Source of the DNA: Pseudomonadota bacterium
GTDB taxonomy: Bacteria > Pseudomonadota > Alphaproteobacteria > SP197
DNA length: 64,000 nucleotides
Assembly: GCA_039028155.1 (NCBI GenBank)
Contig: JBCCIS010000026.1
Location: forward strand, 1-64,000
Direction of reading: 5' to 3'
Shown: one piece after another, positions 41,671-57,156 of the stretch
Numbering within the stretch: position 1 is the stretch's first letter
How the letters are laid out: each line of letters opens with the position of its first letter
Program-made: the position numbers and the translations under genes
The notes under the pieces: generated by a model
What the model saw: only the letters and a program-made list of their open reading frames with translations
Told to the model about the DNA's origin: nothing
Database searches by the model: none

Positions 41671-43578
41671 ATGAACCAATATTCGGCCATTTTGTCGACG
41701 GCGATCGTCGGATATTCGCGCCTCATGCGGATGGATGAGACGCGCGCGGCGGCGTCTTTGAAGCGTATCCGCGCCGAAATTGTCGACATTCGGCTTGCCC
41801 GTCACGGCGGCTCGATAACAAAGGCGGTCGACGATCGCCTGGTGATCGCCTTCGAGACCTGCATGCAGGCGGTCGCCTTCGCGATCGACATGCAGATCGC
41901 GATGCGCGAACGCAACAAGAAGCGGCGCGAGGATCGGCAGATCCACTACCGGATCGGCATCGAGGCCGTCACCGATCCCGAGGCCGATGCTGGAGGATCC
42001 GGCGGTCCGGAGAGCGTAGCCGGCGGCCTTTCCGAGCTCGCCTTCCTGGGCGGTGTCTGCATCTCCGGCCTGGTGCATGACGACATCACCCCCGCCGCCG
42101 ATCTCAACTTCGACCAGATTGTCGAGCGCCGGGTCAAGATCCATCCCGAGCCCGATGCGGTCTATGACGTCGTGCTGGACGAAAAGGCCGCGGCGTTCGT
42201 GGAAGCGCCACCGAAGGTCAGGTCCAAACGGCAGATCAAACGGACAACGATGTTGACTGCCGCCGCGGCGCTGGTGCTGGTGCTGATCGGTGCCGGCGGC
42301 GCCTGGTTTGTCCTGAGCCAAAATCAGACAACAGTCATACCGGAGACCTCGTCCGAACGTTTTCCGAACCGGCCCTCGATCGCCGTTTTGCCGTTCGAGA
42401 ACCTCTCGATGAGCGACGAGGGCAACATGATTGCCGACGGCATGACGGCATCCATCATCAGCGCGCTGGCTGATGTGCCCGAGATCTTCGTGATCTCGCG
42501 CAACTCCATCAACAGCTACAAGGATCAGCCGGTCGATGTCCGTCAGGTCGGTCAGGACCTGAACGTCGCCTATGTCGTTGACGGCACGGTGCAGCTATCC
42601 GGCGACAACGCGCGCATACTTGTCGAGCTCGCCGATACCTTGCGTGGCGAGAACCTATGGACCGGCCGCTACGATCGCCATGTCGGCGATCTCTTCAGTC
42701 TCCAGGACGAGATCGCGCTCAGGGTGCTCGTTTCGCTCCAGGTGCAGTTGACAGAGGGCTATCAGGCGGCCGTTCGCGGCGCCAGCACCGACAATGTCGA
42801 TGCCTATCTGGCGCTGATGCGGGCCGAGGCCGAGTTCCGCGAGTACAGTCGCCAGGGGTCGATGGAAGCGCGGCGATTGATCAAGGAAGTTCTGGCGCTC
42901 GATCCCAATTACCGCGAAGCCTATTTGCTGGAGGCGCGCACCTATATCCGCGATGCCCAATGGGGCCATAGCGACGACCCCACGGCGTCGCTGGAGAAAG
43001 CGGCGACGCTTCTTGAAAAGGCCGCGGCATTAGACGAGCAGACCTCCGACGCCGAACAGGCCGAGCTCGACATTCTGAACGCCTTTATCGATCAGGTCGC
43101 GGGCCGCTACGACGAGGCCATGGCGAAGACGTCAAGCGCGACCGAGCTTGACCCCAACAACTCGTTCGTCCTGGCGCTTGCCGGGTTCCTCGCGTCGTTC
43201 AACCGGCAATACGACAAGTCGATCGAGCTGATCGACCGGGCAATGCTTATCAATCCGGTTTATCCAAGCTGGTACTCGCTCTATTTGTCGCGCGACTACA
43301 CGTTCAAGGGTGAGGTGGACCAGGCCGTCGACTGGGCGCTCGATGCGGTGAGCCGGGCCGAGAACGACAACCGTCGCGCCTGGACGCTGGTCAATCTGGC
43401 CTTCGTCTACGACCAGGCAGGGCGGCCCAACGATGCGCAAGCCGCCGCTGCTGAGGCGCTTGCCCTGTCGCCGGACCTCAGCATTAGCAGCATCGATAGT
43501 GCGCAGCCCTACAGCAATGCGGAAGACTGGGAGACGCTGACGGCATCCCTGGTGCGGGCGGGCATTCCCGAGCAGTAA
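41671..43578 (+). CDS. degenerate class III cyclase domain + TM + TolB/FlgO-like domain + TPR protein
   Basis: This 635-residue protein has residues 1-175 aligned with class III cyclases (VGYSRLMRMDE, HGGSITKAVDDRL). The first metal aspartate is Ala11, and the GDGVNVAAR segment is replaced by an unrelated Gly/Ser-rich stretch, so catalysis is very unlikely. One transmembrane helix follows at about 193-215. The TolB/FlgO-like domain is at about 235-365 (SIAVLPFENLS, VVDGTVQLSG), then TPRs. It is divergent from the kinase-like/TolB/TPR gene, sharing the same two C-terminal modules. Confidence 0.85.
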   Translation: MNQYSAILSTAIVGYSRLMRMDETRAAASLKRIRAEIVDIRLARHGGSITKAVDDRLVIAFETCMQAVAFAIDMQIAMRERNKKRREDRQIHYRIGIEAVTDPEADAGGSGGPESVAGGLSELAFLGGVCISGLVHDDITPAADLNFDQIVERRVKIHPEPDAVYDVVLDEKAAAFVEAPPKVRSKRQIKRTTMLTAAAALVLVLIGAGGAWFVLSQNQTTVIPETSSERFPNRPSIAVLPFENLSMSDEGNMIADGMTASIISALADVPEIFVISRNSINSYKDQPVDVRQVGQDLNVAYVVDGTVQLSGDNARILVELADTLRGENLWTGRYDRHVGDLFSLQDEIALRVLVSLQVQLTEGYQAAVRGASTDNVDAYLALMRAEAEFREYSRQGSMEARRLIKEVLALDPNYREAYLLEARTYIRDAQWGHSDDPTASLEKAATLLEKAAALDEQTSDAEQAELDILNAFIDQVAGRYDEAMAKTSSATELDPNNSFVLALAGFLASFNRQYDKSIELIDRAMLINPVYPSWYSLYLSRDYTFKGEVDQAVDWALDAVSRAENDNRRAWTLVNLAFVYDQAGRPNDAQAAAAEALALSPDLSISSIDSAQPYSNAEDWETLTASLVRAGIPEQ

Positions 43579-45949: not shown

Positions 45950-45968
45950 AATTGAACGACGTTTAATT
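45950..45968. promoter_or_regulatory. cluster TetR operator, copy 1
   Basis: AATTGAAC-GAC-GTTTAATT is a 19-bp palindrome 73 bp before the first gene of the biosynthetic cluster. It matches copy 2 at 45979-45997 and the site in front of the cluster tetR at 52042-52060. The shared core is TTGAAC or CTGAAC, three bases, then GTT. Confidence 0.72.
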
Positions 45969-45978
45969 GATCCCATAT

Positions 45979-45997
45979 AACTGAACGGTGTTCAATT
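45979..45997. promoter_or_regulatory. cluster TetR operator, copy 2
   Basis: AACTGAAC-GGT-GTTCAATT is a 19-bp palindrome with inner TGAAC/GTTCA arms. It starts 29 bp after copy 1, near three helical turns, and ends 44 bp before the first cluster gene. Two adjacent sites suggest tight repression of the cluster promoter. Confidence 0.75.
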
Positions 45998-46041: not shown

Positions 46042-46605
46042 ATGGATGCCGTTCTGTTTGTTCTGATTGGCGGTCTGTTTGCCTTGATCGGCGCCCTGCC
46101 GGTGATCTTCTTCCAGCGGCGTGGTGGGCTGAACCTGCGCTGGTGGCTGACGGCGGCACCGTTCTTTGTCGCCGGTGCCGCGCTGCCGGTCACCTATCTG
46201 GGGCTCGCGCCGATCTGGCAGTTGCCGCAACCGGTTGCCTTGGCTTTCACGATACTGGCGACACTGGCGGCGTCATTCGCGCTGGCGCTGACGACCTACA
46301 CGCTCGGCATCCATCGCCGCCGTATTGCGCTGTGGCACCAGAGCGATGACGCGCCCGAGGAGATCGTTACCGACGGCCCCTATCGCCTGGTGCGCCATCC
46401 CTTTTACACGGCCTTTCTGGCCGCGCTTCTGGCGGCCGTCTTCGCCGCGCCGTCAACGGTCACATTGGTCTGCCTGCTGTGGGGGTTTGCCGCGCTCTTC
46501 CTGACGGCGCGCCGTGAGGAGCGGCGGCTTCTGGGTTCGACGCTTGGCGCCACGTATGAGGCCTATATGCGTCGCACCGGTCATTTCCTTCCGTTGAGGG
46601 GATAG
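46042..46605 (+). CDS. isoprenylcysteine carboxyl methyltransferase-like membrane protein
   Basis: This 187-residue protein has five hydrophobic helices. The C-terminal part carries the ICMT/phospholipid methyltransferase signature: TDGPYRLVRHPFYTAFL, then EERRLL and YEAYMRRTGHFLP. Bacterial relatives methylate lipids, isoprenoids or unknown carboxylates with SAM. It is the first gene of the cluster, directly behind the two TetR operators, and the KAS III gene follows after 7 bp. Methylation of the final product or of its carboxyl end is a plausible but unproven role. Confidence 0.85.
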   Translation: MDAVLFVLIGGLFALIGALPVIFFQRRGGLNLRWWLTAAPFFVAGAALPVTYLGLAPIWQLPQPVALAFTILATLAASFALALTTYTLGIHRRRIALWHQSDDAPEEIVTDGPYRLVRHPFYTAFLAALLAAVFAAPSTVTLVCLLWGFAALFLTARREERRLLGSTLGATYEAYMRRTGHFLPLRG

Positions 46606-46612
46606 AACAGTC

Positions 46613-47566
46613 ATGCAAGACATCTTCCTAAGCGATCTTGCCTATGCGCTGGGTGACGATGCGGTCACGGTGCATGAGAGCGCCAAGGCGGGCCGGCTGG
46701 TCTCCGATCCCGACGCCCTCCTAAACGCGGGTTTCCGGACACACCATCTGTGCCGACCACAGACCACGGTGGTCGATCTTGCCGCGCGGAGTCTGGATCG
46801 CTTTCAAGCGCCGCTATGCGCCGCGCCGATCCTGATCTTCGCAACGGCGTTAACGCCGAACGGCAATCTGGGTGATCCCGTGACGTGCGAGGAAACCGGC
46901 GATGTCCGTCACCTCATGGACTTCCCGGCAAGCCGTCTCCAGGTTCAACTTGGCCTCGCCGATACGGCGGTCATCGGACTGAACCAACAGGCGTGCACGG
47001 CAACGTTGGGCGCAATCCGGGTCGCGCGCGGCCTGCTGGCCGCCGAACCCGATCTGGGTCAGGTCATCTGTGTCAGCGCCGATCGATTTCCCGAAGGTGC
47101 GACTTATGAGCAAAGCTACAACGTCATCTCCGACGGGTCGGCGGCATTTCGGATCAGCAAGTGCGAAGGTCCCTTCCGCGTGCTCGCCTGCCATCAGTTG
47201 ACCAACGGTACATTGGCCGCAGCGTCGGACGACGAGACGGTCGGCGCGTACTTTTCCCACACCCAGCGCCTGATCGGCGAGACCGTCGCCCGTGCCGGAC
47301 TCGGCATTGCGGATGTCGATTGGCTGGTGCCGCAGAACATGAACCGCGCGGCATGGCTGGTCATGGCGCGACTGCTGCAGCTGCCCGAAGAACGCGTTGC
47401 CTGCGCCACGCTGGGCGATGTCGGCCACGTCATAGCCGCGGACAACATCATCAACCTGCACAGCCTGGCGGCGAGTGGTCAGCTCAAGCAAGGCGAGCGC
47501 GTGCTTATGGTCATGGCCGGTTTCGGCATGAACTGGCAGGCGGTGCTTCTGGAGGTGACGTCATGA
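46613..47566 (+). CDS. KAS III (FabH)-like synthase with altered catalytic triad
   Basis: This 317-residue thiolase-fold enzyme of FabH type has the nucleophile Cys128 in NQQACTATLGAI. The usual His of the PHQAN motif is Gln241 (VPQNMN), and the usual Asn of GNTSAAS is replaced at His272 (GDVGHVIAADNI). Such changes occur in KAS III-like enzymes that transfer an acyl group to O or N rather than condense with malonyl-ACP. Its stop overlaps the next start as ATGA. It sits between a methyltransferase and a diiron oxygenase gene with carrier proteins downstream. Confidence 0.87.
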   Translation: MQDIFLSDLAYALGDDAVTVHESAKAGRLVSDPDALLNAGFRTHHLCRPQTTVVDLAARSLDRFQAPLCAAPILIFATALTPNGNLGDPVTCEETGDVRHLMDFPASRLQVQLGLADTAVIGLNQQACTATLGAIRVARGLLAAEPDLGQVICVSADRFPEGATYEQSYNVISDGSAAFRISKCEGPFRVLACHQLTNGTLAAASDDETVGAYFSHTQRLIGETVARAGLGIADVDWLVPQNMNRAAWLVMARLLQLPEERVACATLGDVGHVIAADNIINLHSLAASGQLKQGERVLMVMAGFGMNWQAVLLEVTS

Positions 47567-48417
47567 TGAACCACGCCAAAACCAAGGGCTACGACCGCCT
47601 GGTGACACTGTCCGAAGAGTCGGCCGGCGAAGCGCCGATCCGTTGGCCGGAACACCTGGATGATGACGATCTATGCTTCGCGCCCGACCTGGTGTCGCTT
47701 GCCGGCACCGAGGATTATGCCGGGATGGATGATGCGGCGCGGCGACGGCTTACCCTGTTCGAGGCGGCGAACTTTTTCAGCCTCAACATCCACGGCGAAA
47801 CTCACGTGATCAAAGGCATCGCCGCGCGCCTGAACGAACCGCGATTTGCCGCCCATCGCGGCTATCTCCAGCACTTTCTGGAAGAGGAGGTGCGTCATAG
47901 CGCGATGTTCGCGACGTTCTGCCGCCGTTATGCCGGCAAGGTTTACGCCGAACGTTCGCTCGCCATGTCCGATGACCACGGGCCGGACGGCGACCTGTTG
48001 TTCTTTGCCCGCATCGCCGTCTTCGAGGAGATCGTCGATGCGTTCAACCGCACGATGGCGCGCGATCAAACGCTGGCGCCCGTCGTGCGGGAGATCCACC
48101 GCCGCCATCACGTTGATGAAGCCCGCCATTTGGCATTTGGCAGGAGCTTCTTGAACGACATTGTAGCCGCGCGCGCGTCAGACTGGACAGCGGATGAGCG
48201 CCATGCCGTCGCTCACAAGCTGGAGCGGTTTGCCGATCAGTCGTGGCGACTCTTGTTCAATCCCGAAGTCTATGCCGATGCCGGCCTTGGCGACGTCTTC
48301 GCGCTGCGTCGCCGCGCCATAGCCAGCGAGGCGTCACAACAGCGTCGCGACTGGACCTTGCGCGGCTGCCGGCGCCTGCTGTCGCGTCTGGATCCTGTCG
48401 GTCCGGCGGTGTCATGA
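47563..48417 (+). CDS. AurF-like diiron oxygenase
   Basis: This 284-residue protein has the AurF (p-aminobenzoate N-oxygenase) family diiron ligands in order: Glu79 (NIHGETH), Glu109 and His112 (EEEVRHSAMF), Glu155 or Glu156, and the H-x3-E-x2-H group His182, Glu186, His189 (HHVDEARH). AurF relatives oxidise amines to hydroxylamines or nitro groups, and some hydroxylate carrier-bound amino acids (CmlI and CmlA are comparable chemistry). GGAGG lies seven bases before the ATG, which overlaps the KAS III stop. The carrier-protein gene overlaps its end. Confidence 0.88.
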   Translation: MMNHAKTKGYDRLVTLSEESAGEAPIRWPEHLDDDDLCFAPDLVSLAGTEDYAGMDDAARRRLTLFEAANFFSLNIHGETHVIKGIAARLNEPRFAAHRGYLQHFLEEEVRHSAMFATFCRRYAGKVYAERSLAMSDDHGPDGDLLFFARIAVFEEIVDAFNRTMARDQTLAPVVREIHRRHHVDEARHLAFGRSFLNDIVAARASDWTADERHAVAHKLERFADQSWRLLFNPEVYADAGLGDVFALRRRAIASEASQQRRDWTLRGCRRLLSRLDPVGPAVS

Positions 48418-48683
48418 CCGCGCACGCTGACATTCGTAGCTGGCTGCGCGACTGGGTGGCCGAGACAAGTGGCGAACCGGTGTCGTCGTTCGACGATGAG
48501 ACCGCGCTGTTCGCTGATGGCCTCCTGGACTCCACCGACTTTGTCGAGCTGTTGCTGGTGATCGAGGAGCGTACCGGCCGGCCGGTAGACCTCGCGCGTT
48601 TCGAACCCAATGCGTTTGCGAGCATTAACGCCATGACGCGCCATCTGTTTGCGGAGACGTCTTATGAACCATCTCTGTCTTGA
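48414..48683 (+). CDS. acyl carrier protein 1
   Basis: This 89-residue four-helix carrier protein has Ser40 in DGLLDSTDFVELL as the phosphopantetheine site. The helix after it, LLVIEERTGRPV, is the usual partner surface. ATGA coupling to the diiron oxygenase and a 20-bp overlap with the next gene, a carrier-protein-directed amino acid ligase, suggest it is the acceptor of that ligase. It is not the housekeeping fatty acid ACP. Confidence 0.88.
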   Translation: MTAHADIRSWLRDWVAETSGEPVSSFDDETALFADGLLDSTDFVELLLVIEERTGRPVDLARFEPNAFASINAMTRHLFAETSYEPSLS

Positions 48684-49485
48684 TCATTCGGACCTGGCAG
48701 GGCTTAGCGCAAGGCCCTTGCACGGCGTCGAACTCGACTTCGTTGATGACCTCGATGCGATGATTGTCGCATTGGCCCGTGCCGATGGCGCAGAGGTCTG
48801 GCGGTTCGCGCCTTTGATTGCAATGTCCACGCTGCAGCGCGCCGGATACTGCGACTCGTTTCCTCAGCATGTCACGGTTCCCGTGCCCATGACGCAAAGC
48901 CGTGAGGCTGCGGTCGACTGTGCGCACCAGCCACATGCTTTGGCTCCGGCTGCCTGTCTGCCGCTGTATGACGCTATTGCCGGCACGGATCGTGACGGGC
49001 GGTTGCTGATTACGACCTCCAACACGTGCTGGCGCCATGAACGCCATTACGCCGTCCACCGGCGCCAGTGGGCGTTCACGATGCGGGAAGTCGTGTGCAT
49101 CGGGACGGATGGTGATGTCAGATCGTTCTTGAACGCATGGCGTGGGCACCTGGCGACGATCGCGCGGCTTCTGGGCCTGAATGTCTCATTGATGGCGGCT
49201 TCGGATCCGTTCTTTGGTCCCGGCGATACGAAAGCCTTCTACCAGACGCTTGCGGGCGCGAAGACGGAGCTGACGGTCGGCGACGATCTGGCGATCGCGT
49301 CGCTCAACAACCATCGTCACCACTTCGCCAACGCTTTCGATATACGTGTCGCGGGCAACACCGCATCGACCGGCTGTGTCGCGTTCGGTCTGGATCGCTG
49401 GCTGGCCGCCATGAACGAACGCCACGGCACCGATGCCGCGGCGTGGCCCGCCGTTCCCGGTCCCCAACAGGTTCTGGAGGCCTAG
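48664..49485 (+). CDS. amino acid:[carrier protein] ligase, class II aaRS-like
   Basis: This 273-residue protein resembles the truncated class II seryl-tRNA-synthetase homologues that charge carrier proteins instead of tRNA. Motif 2 is in TCWRHERHY with Arg124 and Glu126, motif 3 is FGLDRW with Arg245, and the zinc ligands are Cys122, Glu142 (FTMRE) and Cys238 (STGCVAFG), the Cys-Glu-Cys set of that family. There is no tRNA-binding domain. It overlaps acyl carrier protein 1 by 20 bp. The amino acid used, Gly or Ala in known relatives, cannot be read here. Confidence 0.87.
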   Translation: MNHLCLDHSDLAGLSARPLHGVELDFVDDLDAMIVALARADGAEVWRFAPLIAMSTLQRAGYCDSFPQHVTVPVPMTQSREAAVDCAHQPHALAPAACLPLYDAIAGTDRDGRLLITTSNTCWRHERHYAVHRRQWAFTMREVVCIGTDGDVRSFLNAWRGHLATIARLLGLNVSLMAASDPFFGPGDTKAFYQTLAGAKTELTVGDDLAIASLNNHRHHFANAFDIRVAGNTASTGCVAFGLDRWLAAMNERHGTDAAAWPAVPGPQQVLEA

Positions 49486-50577
49486 ATGACAACGCGAACC
49501 ATCCTGATCACCGGTGCGGCGGGCTATATGGGCGCACGCGTGGCGCGGGCGTTGGCACGCGATCCTGATGCGCACCTTGTGCTGTGGGTTCGTGCGCCGT
49601 CGCGCGAGGACGCGAAGGCGCGGACGGCGCGGCTTTGTGCCGACCTCACACGAGAAGGCGCCACCGTCACGACGCTTCATGGCGACCTTACAAATAACGC
49701 CCCGTTTGCCGATGTCGACCAGCATGCCGTCACTGATATCGTTCATGGCGCGGCCGTCACCCAGTTCGGTGTCGCGTATGACGAAGCCGTCGCGATCAAC
49801 GTGGCGGGCACACAACACGTGGTCGATCTGGCACGCGCCTGTCCGCGGCTCCAATCCATCAACCTGCTCAGCACGCTCTATGTGGCCGGCCTGAAGGAGG
49901 CGCCGATCGCCGAAGCATTGCTGCCCATGCCCGAGGCGTTCGCCAACCATTATGAACGTTCCAAGTGGATGGCCGAGGAGATTGTCGGACGGTCAGCCGG
50001 CGACCTGCCGTGGCGTATCCTGCGTCTGCCGACCGTCGTCGCCGACAACGACGCCGGCCGGGTCGTGCAAGTCAATGCGGTGCATAACGCGCTGAGGCTC
50101 CTGTTTCACGGTCTGCTTCCCGTCGTTCCGGGCAAGTCCGAAACGCCGCTCTATCTGGCGACGGCCGAAGAACTCGATCAGCCGATACGCGAAATCGTGA
50201 TGTCAGCTCCGCTGGAGCAGGTTTTCAACGTCGTGCCGGATGCGCGGGAGCCTGCGTCGTTGGGCGACATCATTGCCGGCGCCCACGAGGCCTTTTCCGA
50301 TACACCACGCTATCGCGCGAGAACAATGGCGTTGCCGCCATGGTGCGACTGGCAAGCCTTTACCGCTCTATCCGAGGCGGTCGACCGCTTCAGCACGGAT
50401 CTGGTGCGCCAGGCCAACCGCGTGATTGCGCCTTTCGCGCGGCAGCTTTACGTCAACCATGCCGTCGAGACCGGCGCTGCCATGCCCGGCATTCGGTGTC
50501 ACACCAGCCTATCGCGCGCCGTTTTGACGGCGCGTGTCTGCCGCCATCTTGTCGCCACCCGATGGGGATTTTCATGA
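49486..50577 (+). CDS. thioester-reductase-like extended SDR
   Basis: This 363-residue protein has the Rossmann motif TGAAGYMGARVA at residues 9-20, a catalytic SxxY-type segment NLLSTLYVAG, and Tyr156/Lys160 in YERSK. The layout matches NAD(P)-binding domain 4 / thioester reductase domains that release carrier-bound acyl groups as aldehydes or alcohols. The C-terminal ~90 residues (KVNAVH and beyond are helical) may dock the carrier. The ATG follows the ligase stop directly, and the next gene overlaps its stop. Confidence 0.85.
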   Translation: MTTRTILITGAAGYMGARVARALARDPDAHLVLWVRAPSREDAKARTARLCADLTREGATVTTLHGDLTNNAPFADVDQHAVTDIVHGAAVTQFGVAYDEAVAINVAGTQHVVDLARACPRLQSINLLSTLYVAGLKEAPIAEALLPMPEAFANHYERSKWMAEEIVGRSAGDLPWRILRLPTVVADNDAGRVVQVNAVHNALRLLFHGLLPVVPGKSETPLYLATAEELDQPIREIVMSAPLEQVFNVVPDAREPASLGDIIAGAHEAFSDTPRYRARTMALPPWCDWQAFTALSEAVDRFSTDLVRQANRVIAPFARQLYVNHAVETGAAMPGIRCHTSLSRAVLTARVCRHLVATRWGFS

Positions 50578-51149
50578 TGATCGACAACGACAGCCTATGG
50601 ACACTCAGCTACTACCGCCTCTCGGAGATTACGGGGTCATTGTTCTTCGGCCGCGTGATCAAGACGGTCGGCGATCACCCGTTGCAGGGCGAACTGACGA
50701 AACACTTCGCCGATGAAGCACAGCACGCCTGGCTTTGGACCGACTGCCTGAAACGTCTCGGCAAGGAGCCGCTGAAGCTGGATCGCGCCTATCAGGACCA
50801 GTATGCGTCGGTGATCGGCGCGCCGGGCAGTCTGATGGAGGTGCTGGCCGCGACGCTGGTCTTCGAGCAGCGCGTGATCGGTCAGTACGCGCGTCATCTG
50901 AAGGCGCCTGAACTGACGCCCCAGGTGGCGGCGACGTTGCGGACTATCATGGATGACGAACGCTGGCATCTCGCATGGGTGCGCGAAGCGCTCAAAGGTA
51001 TGTGGGCCGACTACGGCGAAGCGACGGTCGAAGCCACGCTGGCGCGCTACCGCGATGCCGACCGCACGGTGTTCTCCGAAACGGTCAGCGACGCGACAGA
51101 GCGGTTGGCGCGCACAATCGGCCTTAACGTGAAGAGGGTGTCATCATGA
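50574..51149 (+). CDS. ferritin-like diiron protein, putative oxygenase
   Basis: This 191-residue four-helix protein has the complete diiron pattern: Glu18, Glu48-x-x-His51 (DEAQHAW), Glu98 (VFEQRVIG) and Glu129-x-x-His132 (DDERWH). It is a ferritin-like carboxylate-bridged diiron protein, distinct from the AurF-like enzyme upstream. It might oxidise a carrier-bound intermediate or an aldehyde (compare aldehyde-deformylating oxygenase). The start overlaps the reductase stop as ATGA and the second carrier-protein gene overlaps its end. Confidence 0.85.
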   Translation: MMIDNDSLWTLSYYRLSEITGSLFFGRVIKTVGDHPLQGELTKHFADEAQHAWLWTDCLKRLGKEPLKLDRAYQDQYASVIGAPGSLMEVLAATLVFEQRVIGQYARHLKAPELTPQVAATLRTIMDDERWHLAWVREALKGMWADYGEATVEATLARYRDADRTVFSETVSDATERLARTIGLNVKRVSS

Positions 51150-51400
51150 TTGAGCGCAATGAGATCGACCGTGTTGTCGATAGTCATCTGATCAATCCGA
51201 TCGCCAGCTTCGATCCGGCAACGCCGATTATCGATGCGGTCGCCGACTCGTTTGCGTATGTCGAGCTGGCGCTGGATCTGGAGGAGCAGTTCGGGTTGCG
51301 GTTGTCCGATGGTGATCTAGCCGAGATGGCGACGGTCGGCGACTTGTCCGGTGTCATCAATGATCGCGTCGCCGCCTTGAACGACGGGGCGCTGAATTGA
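51146..51400 (+). CDS. acyl carrier protein 2
   Basis: This 84-residue carrier protein has Ser35 in VADSFAYVELALDLEEQFG as the attachment site. It differs clearly from carrier protein 1 and has a shorter N-terminus. It overlaps the diiron gene by 4 bp and ends the cluster six bases from the converging tetR gene. Two unlike carriers suggest one for the amino acid and one for an acyl or oxidised intermediate. Confidence 0.85.
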   Translation: MIERNEIDRVVDSHLINPIASFDPATPIIDAVADSFAYVELALDLEEQFGLRLSDGDLAEMATVGDLSGVINDRVAALNDGALN

Positions 51401-51405
51401 CGCTC

Positions 51406-52014
51406 CTAACGGGCCGACGTGGCCTCGTCAGCCGCGGCGCCGGTGGCCAGGTAGCGCACCATGTCATGCGCCAGATCAGCGGGTTTTGGCTCGCCAAAAG
51501 CCGCGAGGTTGCCGGCATTGGCGAGAACCATCAGGCCGTGAACACTGGCCCAGGCGATCAACGCGAATGAGCGGCGGCGGTTGGCGGTGATCTCAGGCGC
51601 GACAGCGCGCTCAAGAATGGCGATCGTTTGATCGACGTGCGGGGTGTACCAGGGCGGCAGGCTTACCCGTCCGGGAACGGTATAGTCGAGGACGGCGGCC
51701 CAATCGCGTTGGTGGTCTTCGGCAAACTTGAAGTAGCAGACCAGCAAGGCCTCGAGGTTGGCGGTGATGTCATCGCCCAGCTCGACCTTCGCCATTTGCT
51801 CATAGAGCCGGTCCAGCGTGCGGGCGTTGACGTGCAGCACGAGCTCATCGAAGTTCTCGAACAGGCTGTAGATCGTGCCTGGCGAATAGCCGATGCGTTC
51901 GGCAACGGCGCGCGCGGTGAGGGCAGCGAGCCCCTTTGTCGCGACGATGTCGTGTCCGGCGGTAAGCGCAAGTTCCGTCAGTTCCTCACGCGTGTGATCG
52001 CTGCGGCGTCCCAC
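51406..52014 (-). CDS. TetR-family repressor of the biosynthetic cluster
   Basis: This 202-residue protein has its helix-turn-helix at about residues 33-66 (LTARAVAERIGYSPGTIYSLF). The C-terminal domain is of the TetR_C_13/WHG-like kind (WYTPHVDQTIAILERAV, ALIAWASVHGLMVLANAG). The GTG start has AAAGGAG five bases upstream. Its promoter carries the same 19-bp palindrome as the cluster promoter, so it probably represses both. Its ligand may be the cluster product or an intermediate. Confidence 0.92.
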   Translation of the reverse strand: MGRRSDHTREELTELALTAGHDIVATKGLAALTARAVAERIGYSPGTIYSLFENFDELVLHVNARTLDRLYEQMAKVELGDDITANLEALLVCYFKFAEDHQRDWAAVLDYTVPGRVSLPPWYTPHVDQTIAILERAVAPEITANRRRSFALIAWASVHGLMVLANAGNLAAFGEPKPADLAHDMVRYLATGAAADEATSAR

Positions 52015-52041: not shown

Positions 52042-52060
52042 AATTGAACAATGTTCGTTT
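52042..52060. promoter_or_regulatory. cluster TetR operator, copy 3
   Basis: AATTGAAC-AAT-GTTCGTTT lies 28 bp in front of the cluster tetR start. It shares the AAYTGAAC-N3-GTT core with the two sites at 45950-45997. This copy has the weakest right arm (GTTCG), as often seen in an autoregulatory site. Confidence 0.72.
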
Positions 52061-52086
52061 ATCGCTCGGTGTCAACCGTCGGGATC

Positions 52087-52152
52087 TCACGCGCGTTTCA
52101 TGTCGGCCAAGACGAGTTTGTCGACGTCGTGGTGTAGGTGGGCCCAAAACGG
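52087..52152 (-). pseudogene. 3' remnant of a Rieske-like oxygenase gene
   Basis: On the minus strand these bases read PFWAHLHHDVDKLVLADMKRA and stop at TGA 52087-52089. The intact Rieske-like protein at 55945-57156 ends PFWDDLHHYFNKLVMTDMMRP, 12 of 21 residues identical, and the DNA is also similar. The fragment has no upstream part, so it is the leftover end of a lost paralogue. Confidence 0.75.
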
Positions 52153-52169
52153 CAGGCGGCATCAAGGGA

Positions 52170-52244
52170 GCGCAGCCATATGGCTATCCGGAAGACTGGG
52201 GCCTGCTGACGGCGGCTCTGGTCCAGGCGGGTATCCCGGAGCAG
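52170..52244 (+). pseudogene. 3' remnant of a TolB/TPR protein gene
   Basis: On the plus strand 25 codons read AQPYGYPEDWGLLTAALVQA then GIPEQ. The intact gene at 41671-43578 ends AQPYSNAEDWETLTASLVRA, GIPEQ and stop: 18 of 25 identical. Here the stop is lost and the frame runs on into GTRP. The upstream part is missing. It abuts the Rieske-like remnant on the opposite strand. Confidence 0.75.
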
Positions 52245-52254
52245 GGGACCCGGC

Positions 52255-53586
52255 CTATTCCCGGAACGATCGGTTCAGTCCGGCCTGGATCGGTTCGAGG
52301 AGGTAGTTCAGCGCCGTGCGTTCGCCGGTAAGGATCATGACTTCCGCTGGCATGCCCGGGACAAGCTCGACGTCGTTCAGTCGCTCGATCTCGTCTTGCG
52401 GAATGATGACACGGGCCTCGTAATAGTCCTCGCCGCGCTGCTGGTCGGTCAGGCGGTCGGCGGAGATGGTCAGCACCTGGCCGTTCAGCGTCGGGGTGTC
52501 GCGCTGGCTCAAGCCGGAGAACCTGACTTCGGCTGTTTGACCGGTGATGACGTTCTCGATGTCGTTGGGCTGGACGCGGGCCTCGATGATCAGCGGGTCA
52601 CCCTCGGGCACGATGTTCATGATGTCGTCGCCCGGCGAGATGACGCCACCCACCGTGTGAGCGTTCAAGCCCAGAACCGTACCGCTGGACGGGGCGCGAA
52701 CCTCGATGCGGTTCAGGATGTCGGCGGCACCGATCTGGCGTTGCTCCAGATCGAAGATCTCAGACTGCACGTCACGCAATTCGGCGACGACTTCCTCGCG
52801 CAGACCCTTCTCAAGCTGAAGTATCTGCAGCGACGCCTCGCCGATGGCGGCCTCGGACTCGGCGATCGCCGCCAGATCCTCGCCGCGCTCGCCGCGCAAA
52901 CGTTCGGACTCGCGTTCCAGCGCCAGAATGCGGCTGCGCGTGACATAGCCCTCGTCATAAAGTTCGCGCAGGCCGTCAAGCTCCTGCTCGATCAGCGTGA
53001 TCTGGGCGTAGCTTGCCGATTGCTGTACCTCCAGCCCTTTAATCTGGTTGCGCAACTGGTCGATGCGCTGGTTCAAGATGCTGACTTGTCCAGCCAGACT
53101 GTCGCGTCTGGCAACGAACAAGAGCTCCTGGCCGGACATGATCATGGCGACTTCCGGTTCACCGTGCCGTTCGAACAGCCCCGTGGGAAAGACGATCGCA
53201 TCGGCGCCGTCGCGTTCGGCAATCAGCCGCGCCTCGGTGGCGAGCGCCAGATCGAGTTGGCCTTCGATAATCGTGATCGAGGCTTCGGCCCTTGTCGCGT
53301 CGAGGCGTAGCAGCAGATCGCCTTCTTCGACGTAATCACCGTCGCGCACGAAGATCGCGGCGACAATGCCGCCCTCCAGGTGCTGGATGGTACGCCAGTT
53401 GGTGTCGACCGCCACCACCCCGGGCGCAATTGCGGCGCTGGACAGTTGGGCGGTCGCCGCCCAGGTCCCGATGCCGCCGAACAAGATGACGACGACGATC
53501 AAGCCCAGCACGATGAAACGGCGCGCCGACGAGCGCCTTATCGGCACGACCTCGCGGCCGTCTGATCCGAGCAGCGTCATACTCAT
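52255..53586 (-). CDS. type I secretion periplasmic adaptor (HlyD/PrtE family)
   Basis: This 443-residue adaptor has one N-terminal transmembrane helix (about residues 22-46), then a lipoyl half-motif QHLEGGIVAAIFVRDGDYV. A long coiled coil spans about 120-290, and the beta-barrel region follows with VRAPSSGTVLGLNAHTVGGVISPGD and the C-terminal VPGMPAEVMILTGERTALNYLLEP typical of PrtE/HlyD. It links the inner-membrane ABC protein to an outer-membrane TolC-like channel. The start overlaps the ABC gene stop by 4 bp. Confidence 0.93.
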   Translation of the reverse strand: MSMTLLGSDGREVVPIRRSSARRFIVLGLIVVVILFGGIGTWAATAQLSSAAIAPGVVAVDTNWRTIQHLEGGIVAAIFVRDGDYVEEGDLLLRLDATRAEASITIIEGQLDLALATEARLIAERDGADAIVFPTGLFERHGEPEVAMIMSGQELLFVARRDSLAGQVSILNQRIDQLRNQIKGLEVQQSASYAQITLIEQELDGLRELYDEGYVTRSRILALERESERLRGERGEDLAAIAESEAAIGEASLQILQLEKGLREEVVAELRDVQSEIFDLEQRQIGAADILNRIEVRAPSSGTVLGLNAHTVGGVISPGDDIMNIVPEGDPLIIEARVQPNDIENVITGQTAEVRFSGLSQRDTPTLNGQVLTISADRLTDQQRGEDYYEARVIIPQDEIERLNDVELVPGMPAEVMILTGERTALNYLLEPIQAGLNRSFRE

Positions 53587-55292
53587 GACGCGTCCTCCAA
53601 CTGCACCTCTTCGGTTCGCCGGACCATGACCTTGCGCAGGACGTCCTGCTTCTCGCCGAAGGTCTCGATCCGCCCGTCGCGCATCATGATGAGTTGATCG
53701 ACGGCGGCAATCGCACTTGGCCTGTGCGCCATGACGACGACGGTCTTGCCGCGTTCCTTCATGGTCACGATAGCTTCGCTCAACGCTTTGTCGCCATCGG
53801 CATCCAGGCTGGCATTGGGCTCGTCGAGCACGATCAGCGAGGGCTCGCGGAATAGCGCGCGGGCCAGCGCGATGCGTTGCCGTTGGCCGCCTGACAAGCG
53901 CCGCCCGCCTTCGCCGATCGGCGTATCGTAGCCCTGGGGCAGGTGCAGGATCATATCGTGGACGTTGGCGAGCTTCGCCGCCGCGACGATCTCCTCCGGC
54001 GTCGCGTCTTCGCAGAAGCGTGCGATGTTATGGCCGATGGTGCCGTCGAAAAGCTCGACATCCTGCGGCAGGTAGCCGATGCAACTGCCCAGTTCGTCGG
54101 GCAGATAGTTCGAGAGTTCGGCGCCGTCCAGCCGCACCGTTCCGTCATAGGGCTGCCAGACACCGACCAGGATGCGCGCCAGGCTGGATTTGCCGGCGCC
54201 GGTCGGTCCGATGACGCCGACCGCGGTGCCCGGCTGCAGTTCGAAACTGATTCGATTCAGGGACGGTGCGCTGGCGCCCGGCGGGACCGCCACGACGCGA
54301 TCCAACGCCACGGCGCCACTCGGTTTGGGCAGGCGCATGCGATCGGGCTGATCGCCGACGTTGGTCAGGAGCTGTTTCAGGCGGCGATAGGACTGACGCG
54401 CCGAGACGAAGGCGCGCCAGCTAACGATGGCCTGCTCCACCGGTTGCAGGGCGCGTGCCATGATGATGGACGCGGCAATCATGACGCCGGGCGTGATGAT
54501 CTGCATGATGGCGAGGTAAGCGCCGGTTCCCAGAATGGCGAGCTGCGCGATCAGGCGGATCGACTTCGACATCGCGCTGATTGTGCCGCCGCGGTCGCTG
54601 GCAACGCTCTGCAGGTGAAGCGAGGACTGGTGGCGGCCGCGCCACATGCTGCGCAACGCCGGCATCATGCCCATGGCCTGTATGGCTTCGGCGTTGCGCA
54701 GGCTGGACTGTGCGAACATCTCGGCTTCGGCCGCATGCCTGCCGGCCTCTTCAATCGGCGGCCTGGTGCGGACTTCGTTGATCAGCGCCAGCGCGAACAG
54801 AAGCAGCGCGCTCGATAGCGCGACGAATCCCAGCAGCGGGTGGAACAGGAAGATGACAAGCAAATAGATCGGCGTCCACGGCGCATCGAACAAGGCGACC
54901 GGCCCGGTCGTGGCCATGAACTGGCGCAGCGAAACCAAGTCACGCAGTGCTTCGCCGCGGTCCAGCCGCGCCGCCGACAAGCTGCGCGCGAACGTTGCGG
55001 TGAACACGAAATCGCCAAGCTGCTCGTCAAGCCGCGCCCCGATGCGCACCAGGATGCGGCTGCGCATGACCTCCAGGAAACCCATAACCATAACCAGGCC
55101 GACGGCCAGCACGGTAAGCGACACCAAAGTCGATTCGCTGCCGCTGGTCAGGACGCGGTCGAACACCTGAAGCATGTAAAGCGGCGCCGTCAGCATCAGG
55201 ATGTTGATGAACATGCTGAAGAAACCGACGGCCAAAAATGTCCGGCGCATGGCGCGGACGGCTTGTTTCAGCGGTGTGCGTTCCCTGGTCAT
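53583..55292 (-). CDS. type I secretion ABC transporter (PrtD family)
   Basis: This 569-residue half-transporter has six membrane helices in about residues 20-310 (YMLQVFDRVLTSGSESTL is a family hallmark). The ATPase domain has Walker A GPTGAGKSS, signature LSGGQRQRIALARAL, and Walker B LIVLDEPNASLD, with the H-loop in MAHRPS. It exports RTX-type proteins with HlyD. No RTX substrate or TolC-like gene lies in the window, so the cargo is encoded elsewhere or is not RTX. Confidence 0.93.
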   Translation of the reverse strand: MTRERTPLKQAVRAMRRTFLAVGFFSMFINILMLTAPLYMLQVFDRVLTSGSESTLVSLTVLAVGLVMVMGFLEVMRSRILVRIGARLDEQLGDFVFTATFARSLSAARLDRGEALRDLVSLRQFMATTGPVALFDAPWTPIYLLVIFLFHPLLGFVALSSALLLFALALINEVRTRPPIEEAGRHAAEAEMFAQSSLRNAEAIQAMGMMPALRSMWRGRHQSSLHLQSVASDRGGTISAMSKSIRLIAQLAILGTGAYLAIMQIITPGVMIAASIIMARALQPVEQAIVSWRAFVSARQSYRRLKQLLTNVGDQPDRMRLPKPSGAVALDRVVAVPPGASAPSLNRISFELQPGTAVGVIGPTGAGKSSLARILVGVWQPYDGTVRLDGAELSNYLPDELGSCIGYLPQDVELFDGTIGHNIARFCEDATPEEIVAAAKLANVHDMILHLPQGYDTPIGEGGRRLSGGQRQRIALARALFREPSLIVLDEPNASLDADGDKALSEAIVTMKERGKTVVVMAHRPSAIAAVDQLIMMRDGRIETFGEKQDVLRKVMVRRTEEVQLEDAS

Positions 55293-55944
55293 CGTGATGT
55301 CATCGCTGCTTCGCGGTCTTCAAGGCGTCAATCACCGTCATGCTCATGTCGGACAGTGGTCCGGCCGATCGCGGCGGCCGGCGGATCAGGCTCCGCTTGC
55401 TCGCTTGCCGACCGTCAAGGTCCGATGTCCTCCTCCGCCTTCGTGCCCGTCACGCGACTTCCGGCTCGTCAAAGGGCGGTGCTCTTCACGTCTCTTTCGA
55501 CGACGGCGACAACGTATGGCGGCGCGCCAAAGTTGCTCCGTCGTTGCGTACAGTTTCCCAATCTGGCTTACAAATCACCAAGATTACAACACTGATACTC
55601 TACATTTGACGTTATGGTTCACAGCGGCGTTTCAGCTTAAGCGGAATGCGCGGTTCATGTATCACTTTCGTTGAGCTACCGCGACACCACCGTGTTGTAT
55701 CGCATGGCCCGCACGTGGCGTTGCAGGCGTCTCGAGTTCCCCATTCCCGCAATCCTATCGAAAGACGATTTTTACGCGTTGGTTTCGGCCATGCGGTGAT
55801 CCGCGTCTCAGAATATCCATCATAGAGTTAGGGTTTCTGCGCAACGTTTTGTCACGACATATCGGCCCGACCTTGCACACCTGCATGGTACGGTCGGGCG
55901 GGACACTTGGATGATTTGGCGGCCTTATCTGGACCAGCGGCGTA
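55293..55944. other. non-coding region before the type I secretion genes
   Basis: These 652 bp separate the secretion operon's start from the 3' end of the Rieske-like gene. Short open frames exist but none has a ribosome site and recognisable protein. Bases about 55555-55680 are AT-richer than the surroundings and may hold the leftward promoter. I see no palindrome strong enough to call. Confidence 0.5.
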
Positions 55945-57156
55945 TCAGGGACGCATCATGTCGGTCATGACGAGCTTGTTGAAATAGTGGTGCAGGTCGT
56001 CCCAGAACGGTGCGTAGAAGTGCTGACCCCAGACTGGTGAGTGGCGCGCGCTTTGGACCGCCTCTATGGCGAGCTTGTCTTCATAGTGCACGACGTCAAA
56101 GAGTGTCTGAACCGAGGTTTCCTCGGCTTGGAAGCAGTCGTCGGCAAGTGCCTCGGGACTGTAGAAGCGCAGGTGCTGCAGATACGTCTCGTTCGGTGCC
56201 ACGGGCACGGCGATGTTCACCTTCATGAAAGCATCCAGCAACGGCACGTTGACGTTTGGGTATAGCGTCGTGAAGTAGCCCCAGTCGGGCTGTCGTTGAA
56301 TGTCGTGACCGGCAGTCGGCAGACGAATGGGATCATAGGTCTTGCCGCTTTTCTGCCGGCTATGCCCGAAAGCGACGAGCGCATCGTCCATGAAGAGTTT
56401 GAAGCCCGGATTGCCATCGGCATCGACGCGCGGCACCTCCTGCGACTTGCGATAGAGATCGTGCGTGAAACCCTCATGCAGCAGATTGATCGAGGCGTTT
56501 TCCTGATAGGTCTTCCAGTTGGCCTTGACCGTTCGGGCTTCGATCAGCGGTTTGCCGTCGCCGTCACGGGCGGGCACCAGGCGTTCGACCGCGTAGTCGC
56601 CGCCGACCGCGCGTATCCATGGCGCAAGCCAGTCGTCAATATCGGGGGCGGCGCCGTCGATATCGATGAAGACGGTGCCAATGCGCACGGCCGTGCGAAT
56701 CTCGACCAGATTGCCGTCATGGCCGTTGAGTTCGCCGGGTCCAGTCTGCGGCTTGCCGGACCAATAAGGCGCGTCGACCAACTGACCGCGCAGGTCGTAG
56801 CGCCAGCCGTGATAGAGCACCTCGATCTCCGCCAGACCCTTGCGATCGCCGCGCACGGCGGGGCAGCCGTCATAGGGGCAGATGTTGTGGAAGACGCGCA
56901 AGATGCCGTCATCGCCGCGCAGGGCAAGGAGCGGCATACCGAAGAGATCAAAGGTGTGGGCGTCGCCGGGGTCGGGTAGGGCGCAGTCGAACATCACCGC
57001 TGTCCAGTTGCGCCGGAAGATGCGTTCGGCTTCAAGCGCCAGCCAGTCGTCGTCGGTGAAGGCCGGCGGCGGCGGCGTCATGGCGTCGCCGATCGGCGCC
57101 ATCACGGCGTCGCACTCAGCCTGGGTGATCAAGGCGCCAAGTCGGGTGTCCATCAC
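55945..57156 (-). CDS. Rieske-type ring-hydroxylating oxygenase-like protein with degenerate cluster site
   Basis: This 403-residue protein has the alpha-subunit layout. The Rieske region keeps Cys93 (NICPYDG) and His116 (LYHGW). The first-pair His is Tyr95 and the second-pair Cys is Val113, so a normal [2Fe-2S] Rieske cluster cannot form. The mononuclear iron site keeps NWKTYQEN with His227 and His232 (LLHEGFTH). The bridging Asp is lost. It is last of a three-gene operon behind an amine oxidase. A homologous 3' fragment lies at 52087-52152. Its electron supply is unknown. Confidence 0.85.
   Translation of the reverse strand: MMDTRLGALITQAECDAVMAPIGDAMTPPPPAFTDDDWLALEAERIFRRNWTAVMFDCALPDPGDAHTFDLFGMPLLALRGDDGILRVFHNICPYDGCPAVRGDRKGLAEIEVLYHGWRYDLRGQLVDAPYWSGKPQTGPGELNGHDGNLVEIRTAVRIGTVFIDIDGAAPDIDDWLAPWIRAVGGDYAVERLVPARDGDGKPLIEARTVKANWKTYQENASINLLHEGFTHDLYRKSQEVPRVDADGNPGFKLFMDDALVAFGHSRQKSGKTYDPIRLPTAGHDIQRQPDWGYFTTLYPNVNVPLLDAFMKVNIAVPVAPNETYLQHLRFYSPEALADDCFQAEETSVQTLFDVVHYEDKLAIEAVQSARHSPVWGQHFYAPFWDDLHHYFNKLVMTDMMRP

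Follow-up and report, generated by a model that had tools for sequence, protein, structure and literature searches.

The 64,000-nucleotide stretch analyzed here (the window), which spans positions 1 to 64,000 of contig JBCCIS010000026.1 from a Pseudomonadota bacterium, carries eight same-strand open reading frames (ORFs) at 46042-51400 (+). Their products include two small acyl carrier proteins (ACPs), a ligase resembling aminoacyl-tRNA synthetases (aaRSs), and several enzymes that may form one biosynthetic pathway with them. The original prediction, made from the sequence alone, described mostly overlapping stop and start codons, and the successive junctions (+7, -4, -4, -20, 0, -4, and -4 nt) agree with this description, with four of them at -4 nt and one at -20 nt. 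Its family assignments for the eight genes were also recovered, with the caveat that the ligase, the reductase, and the second diiron protein score under some curated Pfam or NCBIfam cut-offs.

The first gene (46042-46605, +) encodes a PEMT/ICMT-family membrane S-adenosylmethionine (SAM) methyltransferase-like protein of 187 aa (PF04191 and PF04140, 34.7 and 30.5 bits, above the Pfam cut-off). It is followed by a β-ketoacyl-ACP synthase III (KAS III)-like acyltransferase of 317 aa (46613-47566, +; ACP_syn_III_C, 69.4 bits, above the Pfam cut-off) and an AurF-family diiron oxygenase of 284 aa (47563-48417, +; PF11583, 124.2 bits against a gathering cut-off of 29.6). ACP1 (89 aa; 48414-48683, +), the presumed acceptor of the ligase, and ACP2 (84 aa; 51146-51400, +), the presumed partner of the second diiron protein, match PP-binding with 26.9 and 31.4 bits, respectively (Pfam cut-off, 20.8), and carry their phosphopantetheine (Ppant) serines at positions 40 and 35. 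Between them lie the aaRS-like (class II, SerRS-type) amino acid:[carrier protein] ligase (273 aa; 48664-49485, +), a thioester-reductase-like short-chain dehydrogenase/reductase (SDR; 363 aa; 49486-50577, +) with GxxGxxG, S129/T130, and Y156xxxK160 motifs, and a ferritin-like second diiron protein, diiron2 (191 aa; 50574-51149, +), with candidate ligands E18, E48xxH51, E98, and E129xxH132. Neither an adenylation-thiolation-reductase (A-T-R) nonribosomal peptide synthetase (NRPS) nor a heme-oxygenase-like HamA/PvfA protein was found by Pfam among the eight cluster proteins.

Conservation and predicted local regulation of the operon

A sister genome, deposited as an Alphaproteobacteria metagenome-assembled genome, carries all eight genes at 81 to 94% protein identity (locus L003); in each gene, the third position of the codons has accumulated the most changes. 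Within the window's order, diiron2 was found only in the two members of the window's own genus. Ligase relatives occurred in 45 genomes of a phylum sample of 397; among 29 such loci read with 1.5-kb flanks, only that of G156, a genome from another class of Pseudomonadota, had adjoining KAS III, AurF, ACP1, and SDR genes. G156 has all eight genes, including a homologue of the methyltransferase-like gene, together with a phosphopantetheinyl transferase (PPTase) gene, and its cluster is followed by genes for a fatty acyl-AMP ligase (FAAL)-like AMP-binding enzyme, an MMPL transporter, and a LolA-like protein. No further case appeared in samples of 369 genomes from the class of G156 and 385 genomes from that of the window.

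A variant core was found in another phylum, in the Gemmatimonadaceae, where diiron2 occurs in 18 of 179 genomes. The gene order is KAS III-SDR-ACP1-ligase-diironX-diiron2 in 14 of these 18 loci, diironX being a ferritin-like protein in the place of AurF; the remaining 4 are incomplete or cut by contig ends. In one type of locus, a DUF3419 gene follows diiron2, whereas the other type has a soluble methyltransferase gene between the ligase and diironX. In two methyltransferase-type loci, the KAS III gene is also preceded by a polyketide-cyclase-like (SRPBCC) gene (L090, 838-1269; L093, 2007-2441), which recalls HamE/PvfD. Plasmid searches with diiron2 and with KAS III, and a scan of viral contigs with diiron2, gave no matches. 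Absence of the gene set from other genomes was one of the outcomes that, by the original prediction, would have refuted it, and the set does recur, in L003, in G156, and as the Gemmatimonadaceae core. Since this recurrence extends to another class and another phylum, the sequence comparison indicates that the gene arrangement is not due to chance.

Downstream of the operon and facing toward it lies a gene for a TetR-family regulator, probably a local repressor (51406-52014, -; TetR_N and TetR_C_33 in Pfam; 95% identical in L003). Two operator-like palindromes precede the first gene: a distal copy, TTGAACGACGTTTAATT (45952-45968, +), which is a putative TetR site and reads TTGAACATCGTTTAGTT at the same position in L003, and a proximal copy, CTGAACGGTGTTCAATT (45981-45997, +), which lies 44 nt ahead of the first ATG and is identical in L003. 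A third, TTGAACAATGTTCGTTT (52044-52060, +), lies at the tetR promoter, where L003 has a perfect TGAAC-N3-GTTCA. The pattern TTGAAC-N3-GTT marks just these three sites in the window, two ahead of the first gene and one ahead of tetR, and TGAAC-N3-GTTCA occurs once in the 64 kb, as the proximal palindrome. Our two-strand pattern scan returned five matches against 0.2 expected, with two sites counted on both strands, and the 5.3-Mb genome holds four exact palindrome matches, three of them at the operon and tetR promoters. Since the operon and tetR promoters share the three palindromes, all of which are retained in L003, the sites suggest joint control of a single, locally regulated unit. No site was found in a sigma-70 promoter scan.

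The sequence beyond tetR has two further features. An 89-nt segment (52156-52244) is 75% identical to 43487-43575, the 3' end of an adenylate-cyclase-like gene (41671-43578), with a nearly identical C-terminal peptide; it resembles the degraded remnant of a cyclase tail next to tetR. In addition, a 65-nt direct repeat (52075-52139 and 55933-55997; 72% identical) flanks HlyD/ABC-type export genes at 52255-55292.

Carrier-protein pairing and active sites

The ligase has as its top NCBIfam match the amino acid--[acyl-carrier-protein] ligase model NF005479 (157.2 bits, E of 5e-46; the cut-off of 357 is not reached) and falls marginally under the Pfam cut-off for tRNA-synt_2b (28.9 versus 29.3 bits). 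It aligns with Bll0957 of Bradyrhizobium (PDB 3mey; E of 1.7e-35), and its C98, E142, and C238 fall on the zinc-site positions of that protein, which we take to be the ligand triad C131/E176/C279. The Cys-Glu-Cys set is invariant in 18/18 loci. In a tree with long branches, 28 classical ligases group together with 100/100 support, to the exclusion of the window ligase and its plasmid relatives.

Gene fusions bear on which carrier protein serves which enzyme. Wherever the ligase can be read in a methyltransferase-type Gemmatimonadaceae locus, as is the case for six loci, a single frame encodes it together with ACP1; the ACP1 part of these fusions is unscored by Pfam and was called from an ACP1 profile (E of about 1e-7 to 1e-11) together with the Ppant serine, which is invariant in 18/18 loci. 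A single frame likewise joins diiron2 to ACP2 at five loci, four of them recognized by model (L045, L089, L090, and L093) and the fifth, L091, by sequence reading. PP-binding reaches 1.7e-13 for L045 and 6e-14 for L090 in Pfam. Given these six and five fusions, ACP1 can be paired with the ligase and ACP2 with diiron2 on sequence grounds, which settles a question that the original prediction could not decide. By analogy with its family, the ligase would charge ACP1.

In the KAS III-like enzyme, C128, H272, and D277 are invariant in 17/17 loci. At the position of the Asn in the Cys-His-Asn triad of FabH, all 17 have a His, with an invariant Asp five residues on, while the position of the FabH His holds His in 14 loci and Gln in 3 Pseudomonadota loci; the score against the FabH model is 42.6 bits (NCBIfam cut-off, 292). 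The acyltransferase ChlB3 has the triad Cys113-His296-Asp301 (PMC9573744), and the KAS III-like AfcL, with a Cys/His/Asp triad, forms an amide in AFC-BC11 assembly (PMC12186527). Since the window triad matches those of ChlB3 and AfcL rather than that of FabH, we read the enzyme as an acyltransferase type, for which acyl transfer is predicted.

The SDR scores above the Pfam cut-off for NAD_binding_4 (109.9 bits) and has an extended-SDR fold with Ser/Thr-Tyr-Lys, in which Tyr and Lys are invariant in 17/17 loci. Its predicted model, although weak (mean predicted confidence [pLDDT], 62), has reductase (R) domains of NRPSs and polyketide synthases (PKSs) as top structural matches. Diiron2 has only ferritin-like Pfam matches, all under cut-off, and retains its six ferritin-type ligands in 20 to 21 of 21 loci. 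Its model (pLDDT, 82) matches aldehyde-deformylating oxygenase (ADO) over the full length (Z up to 17.7; 2.5 to 3.4 Å), MiaE (Z of 17.5), and bacterioferritins (Z of about 16); given that these matches are about equal, the fold does not discriminate the chemistry of diiron2.

In the AurF-family protein, E155, H182, E186, and H189 align with the E, H, E, and H of the AurF structure that we take to be metal ligands, including the extra His of HxxxExxH; these residues and the other ligand candidates are invariant among seven homologues. Genes for AurF homologues lie close to those for an ACP and a ligase relative on plasmids of Tistrella mobilis, Agrobacterium vitis, and two Streptomyces strains; two further close AurF homologues adjoin NRPS genes, whereas one more distant homologue does not. 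On the plasmid of Streptomyces sp. NBC_00335 (L061, 1196-16690), AurF, ACP, and aaRS-like ligase genes lie within a larger cluster that also holds pabB, ketosynthase/chain-length-factor genes, two more ACP genes, two PPTase genes, and a gene for a weakly transglutaminase-like protein. The A. vitis F2/5 plasmid (L064, 4533-11656) carries genes for an ACP, AurF, a nitronate-monooxygenase-family protein, a ligase relative, and a PPTase; an IS6 transposase gene immediately precedes this group, and an IS66 element lies downstream. On three plasmids, the AurF/ligase genes are followed by a gene of the nitronate-monooxygenase family. We considered nitro products on this basis and set them aside, since the family also includes FabK enoyl reductases and the window has no such gene. 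A more divergent ligase relative in Kitasatospora phosalacinea (L005, 5718-10795) lies near ACP, P450-like, aminotransferase-like, and RraA-like genes (named by eye), which is possibly another ligase-based pathway and not the cluster of the window.

A proposed pathway and its alternatives

The explanation that we favor, with a probability of roughly 55%, is a TetR-controlled carrier-protein pathway without an NRPS, in which an amino acid is loaded, oxidized, and acylated, and the product is released by reduction and tailored by a SAM-dependent enzyme. The ligase would activate one amino acid with ATP and load it onto ACP1, its fusion partner elsewhere. The AurF-type enzyme would then oxidize the aminoacyl group on its carrier, with nitrogen the most likely site, following the precedent of HamC/PvfB with tethered valine. 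Cys128 of the KAS III-like enzyme would take up an acyl group and transfer it without malonyl-ACP condensation, as AfcL and ChlB3 suggest, the simplest route having ACP2 as donor and, as acceptor, the amino or N-hydroxy group of aminoacyl-ACP1. Diiron2, paired with ACP2 through the fusions, would oxidize the group carried there. The SDR, judged by its family and active site, would free the product from ACP1 reductively, giving an aldehyde or alcohol, and a SAM-dependent enzyme would probably cap it: the ICMT-like membrane protein here and a soluble methyltransferase or DUF3419 protein in other lineages. The predicted product is a small, probably lipophilic, N-oxidized acyl-amino aldehyde or alcohol that might serve as a signal or bind a metal. 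The original prediction had already proposed that the genes act in one pathway, in which an amino acid is loaded, oxidized, and reductively released; the gene fusions, shared operator-like sites, and invariant catalytic residues support this.

Several observations weigh against this reading. The SDR reaches only 97.7 bits against its top NCBIfam match, the thioester reductase domain TIGR01746 (cut-off, 213). Since the Gemmatimonadaceae replace AurF with diironX, which has no convincing AurF profile match, oxidation may not be at nitrogen, and N-oxidation is likely rather than certain; moreover, AurF-related enzymes are also reported to halogenate or to oxidize hydroxylamine (CylC, PMC12101540; DnfA, PMC9478400). 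ACP2 is not visible in the DUF3419-type loci, so its role as acyl donor would not be universal. The most doubtful parts of the scheme are therefore the site of oxidation and the role of ACP2. An acyl-activating gene is also missing from the window cluster. The one FAAL relative that turned up in the same genome was considered as the missing partner and set aside because it sits in a separate PKS locus (L048; G000:C9:14000-33900), where a FAAL-like gene with a carrier-like domain accompanies a very large multidomain gene.

An aminolipid of the membrane or outer membrane, rather than a diffusible metabolite, would arise if a fatty acyl group and an amino acid were joined, reduced, SAM modified, and exported by MMPL/LolA-like proteins. 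The PEMT/ICMT-like membrane protein, the FAAL-like, MMPL, and LolA-like genes after the G156 cluster, and the DUF3419 and MMPL genes of the Gemmatimonadaceae are consistent with this account, given that DUF3419 presumably includes BtaA of betaine lipid synthesis. We nevertheless consider it unlikely: the loci read contain no glycerolipid acyltransferase or phosphatidyl-transferase gene, MMPL-family proteins export other lipophilic products too, and an operon with its own TetR that is absent from the family's other genera looks like specialized metabolism. Quite unlikely is a decarboxylative C-C condensation, in which malonyl-ACP would extend the aminoacyl or acyl chain and the SDR would release an amino-ketone. 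Although the KAS III fold and the FabH His kept in most loci would allow it, the replacement of the FabH Asn by His throughout, with the Asp five residues on, gives the ChlB3/AfcL triad, and the Gln of the three Pseudomonadota loci and the low FabH score point the same way.

The adjacency of the SDR and diiron2 genes in the window and the full-length ADO match recall the cyanobacterial pair of acyl-ACP reductase and ADO, which would convert a thioester via an aldehyde to a one-carbon-shorter product. We regard this as very unlikely, since MiaE and bacterioferritins match diiron2 nearly as well and its fusion to ACP2 suggests a carrier-bound substrate. Most improbable among the alternatives is a product with an N-N bond, such as a diazeniumdiolate, along the lines of fragin or valdiazen, with the ligase, ACP1, and SDR in the role of the A-T-R synthetase. 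Amino acid activation, a carrier, AurF, and a reductase are indeed combined on the same logic as in HamD/HamC and PvfC/PvfB, and the polyketide-cyclase-like gene upstream in some Gemmatimonadaceae loci fits the description of HamE, but the operon lacks a heme-oxygenase-like (HamA) or cupin (HamB) gene and no second nitrogen source is evident.

Returning to the loading-to-release pathway, we propose more tentatively, and at somewhat less than even odds, that it represents a previously undescribed pathway class in at least two phyla. In this class, an aaRS-derived ligase would be the sole amino acid activator, and a dissociated set of carrier, N-oxygenase, KAS III acyltransferase, and stand-alone thioester reductase would make N-oxidized acyl-amino aldehydes or alcohols.

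Comparison with known systems

To our knowledge, structures of amino acid:[carrier protein] ligases have been solved since about 2010, and we know of no pathway for these enzymes. Here, a divergent branch of them lies in an operon that is compact, regulated, and conserved, with defined partners, so that its role is directly testable with eight small proteins. If the proposal is true, it would give a branch of orphan ligases its first metabolic role. A cluster of this kind may escape genome mining that relies on NRPS/PKS megasynthases, and the combination of ligase and AurF offers a simple search key for new N-oxidized metabolites. The AurF-ACP-ligase trio on Streptomyces, Agrobacterium, and Tistrella plasmids further suggests a reusable module joined to other chemistry.

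The original prediction knew of no described pathway with this gene set, and we found none in the open-access literature, most subscription journals lying outside its scope; nor did that literature yield a described pathway joining an aaRS-like ligase with an N-oxygenase. The pathway logic is already known from the ham/pvf, afc, and lit systems, whereas its combination with an aaRS-like activating enzyme was not found there. Classical ligases (Bll0957, NF005479) share with the window ligase a class II SerRS-type core, the Cys-Glu-Cys positions, and a small adjoining or fused ACP, although the window ligase stays under the NCBI cut-off (157 versus 357 bits) and outside their 100/100 clade. Two classical loci comprise ACP, acyl-CoA dehydrogenase, ligase, DUF1839, and GH2 genes, without AurF, KAS III, or reductase genes.

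Like the window operon, the AFC-BC11 (afc) system has no condensation domain; it uses a KAS III-like Cys/His/Asp acyltransferase, a FAAL, a carrier protein, and acyl-ACP-desaturase-like enzymes (PMC12186527), but its activator is A-domain-like, and AurF and a thioester reductase are not among its described genes. The lipothrenin (lit) system has a KAS III, a FAAL, an ACP, and an AurF-like N-oxygenase that makes an N-hydroxy N-acyl amino acid (PMC10616846), whereas its gene list has no aaRS-like ligase or thioester reductase and the amino acid is not reported to be carrier bound. ChlB3-type KAS III acyltransferases share the Cys-His-Asp triad and the His-Asp spacing of five (PMC9573744), albeit with a sequence from which that of the enzyme described here is divergent. 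In the ham/pvf (mgo) systems for fragin and valdiazen, an amino acid is loaded onto a carrier, oxidized while tethered by an AurF-type N-oxygenase, and released by a reductase domain: HamC, an AurF homologue, oxidizes valine that is bound to HamD, a synthetase with such a domain at its end (PMC11659414). Although a single A-T-R synthetase there corresponds to three separate proteins here, with an unrelated activating enzyme and the addition of KAS III, diiron2, and ACP2, HamC and HamD are the nearest functioning model for the loading, oxidation, and release steps proposed for the window operon.

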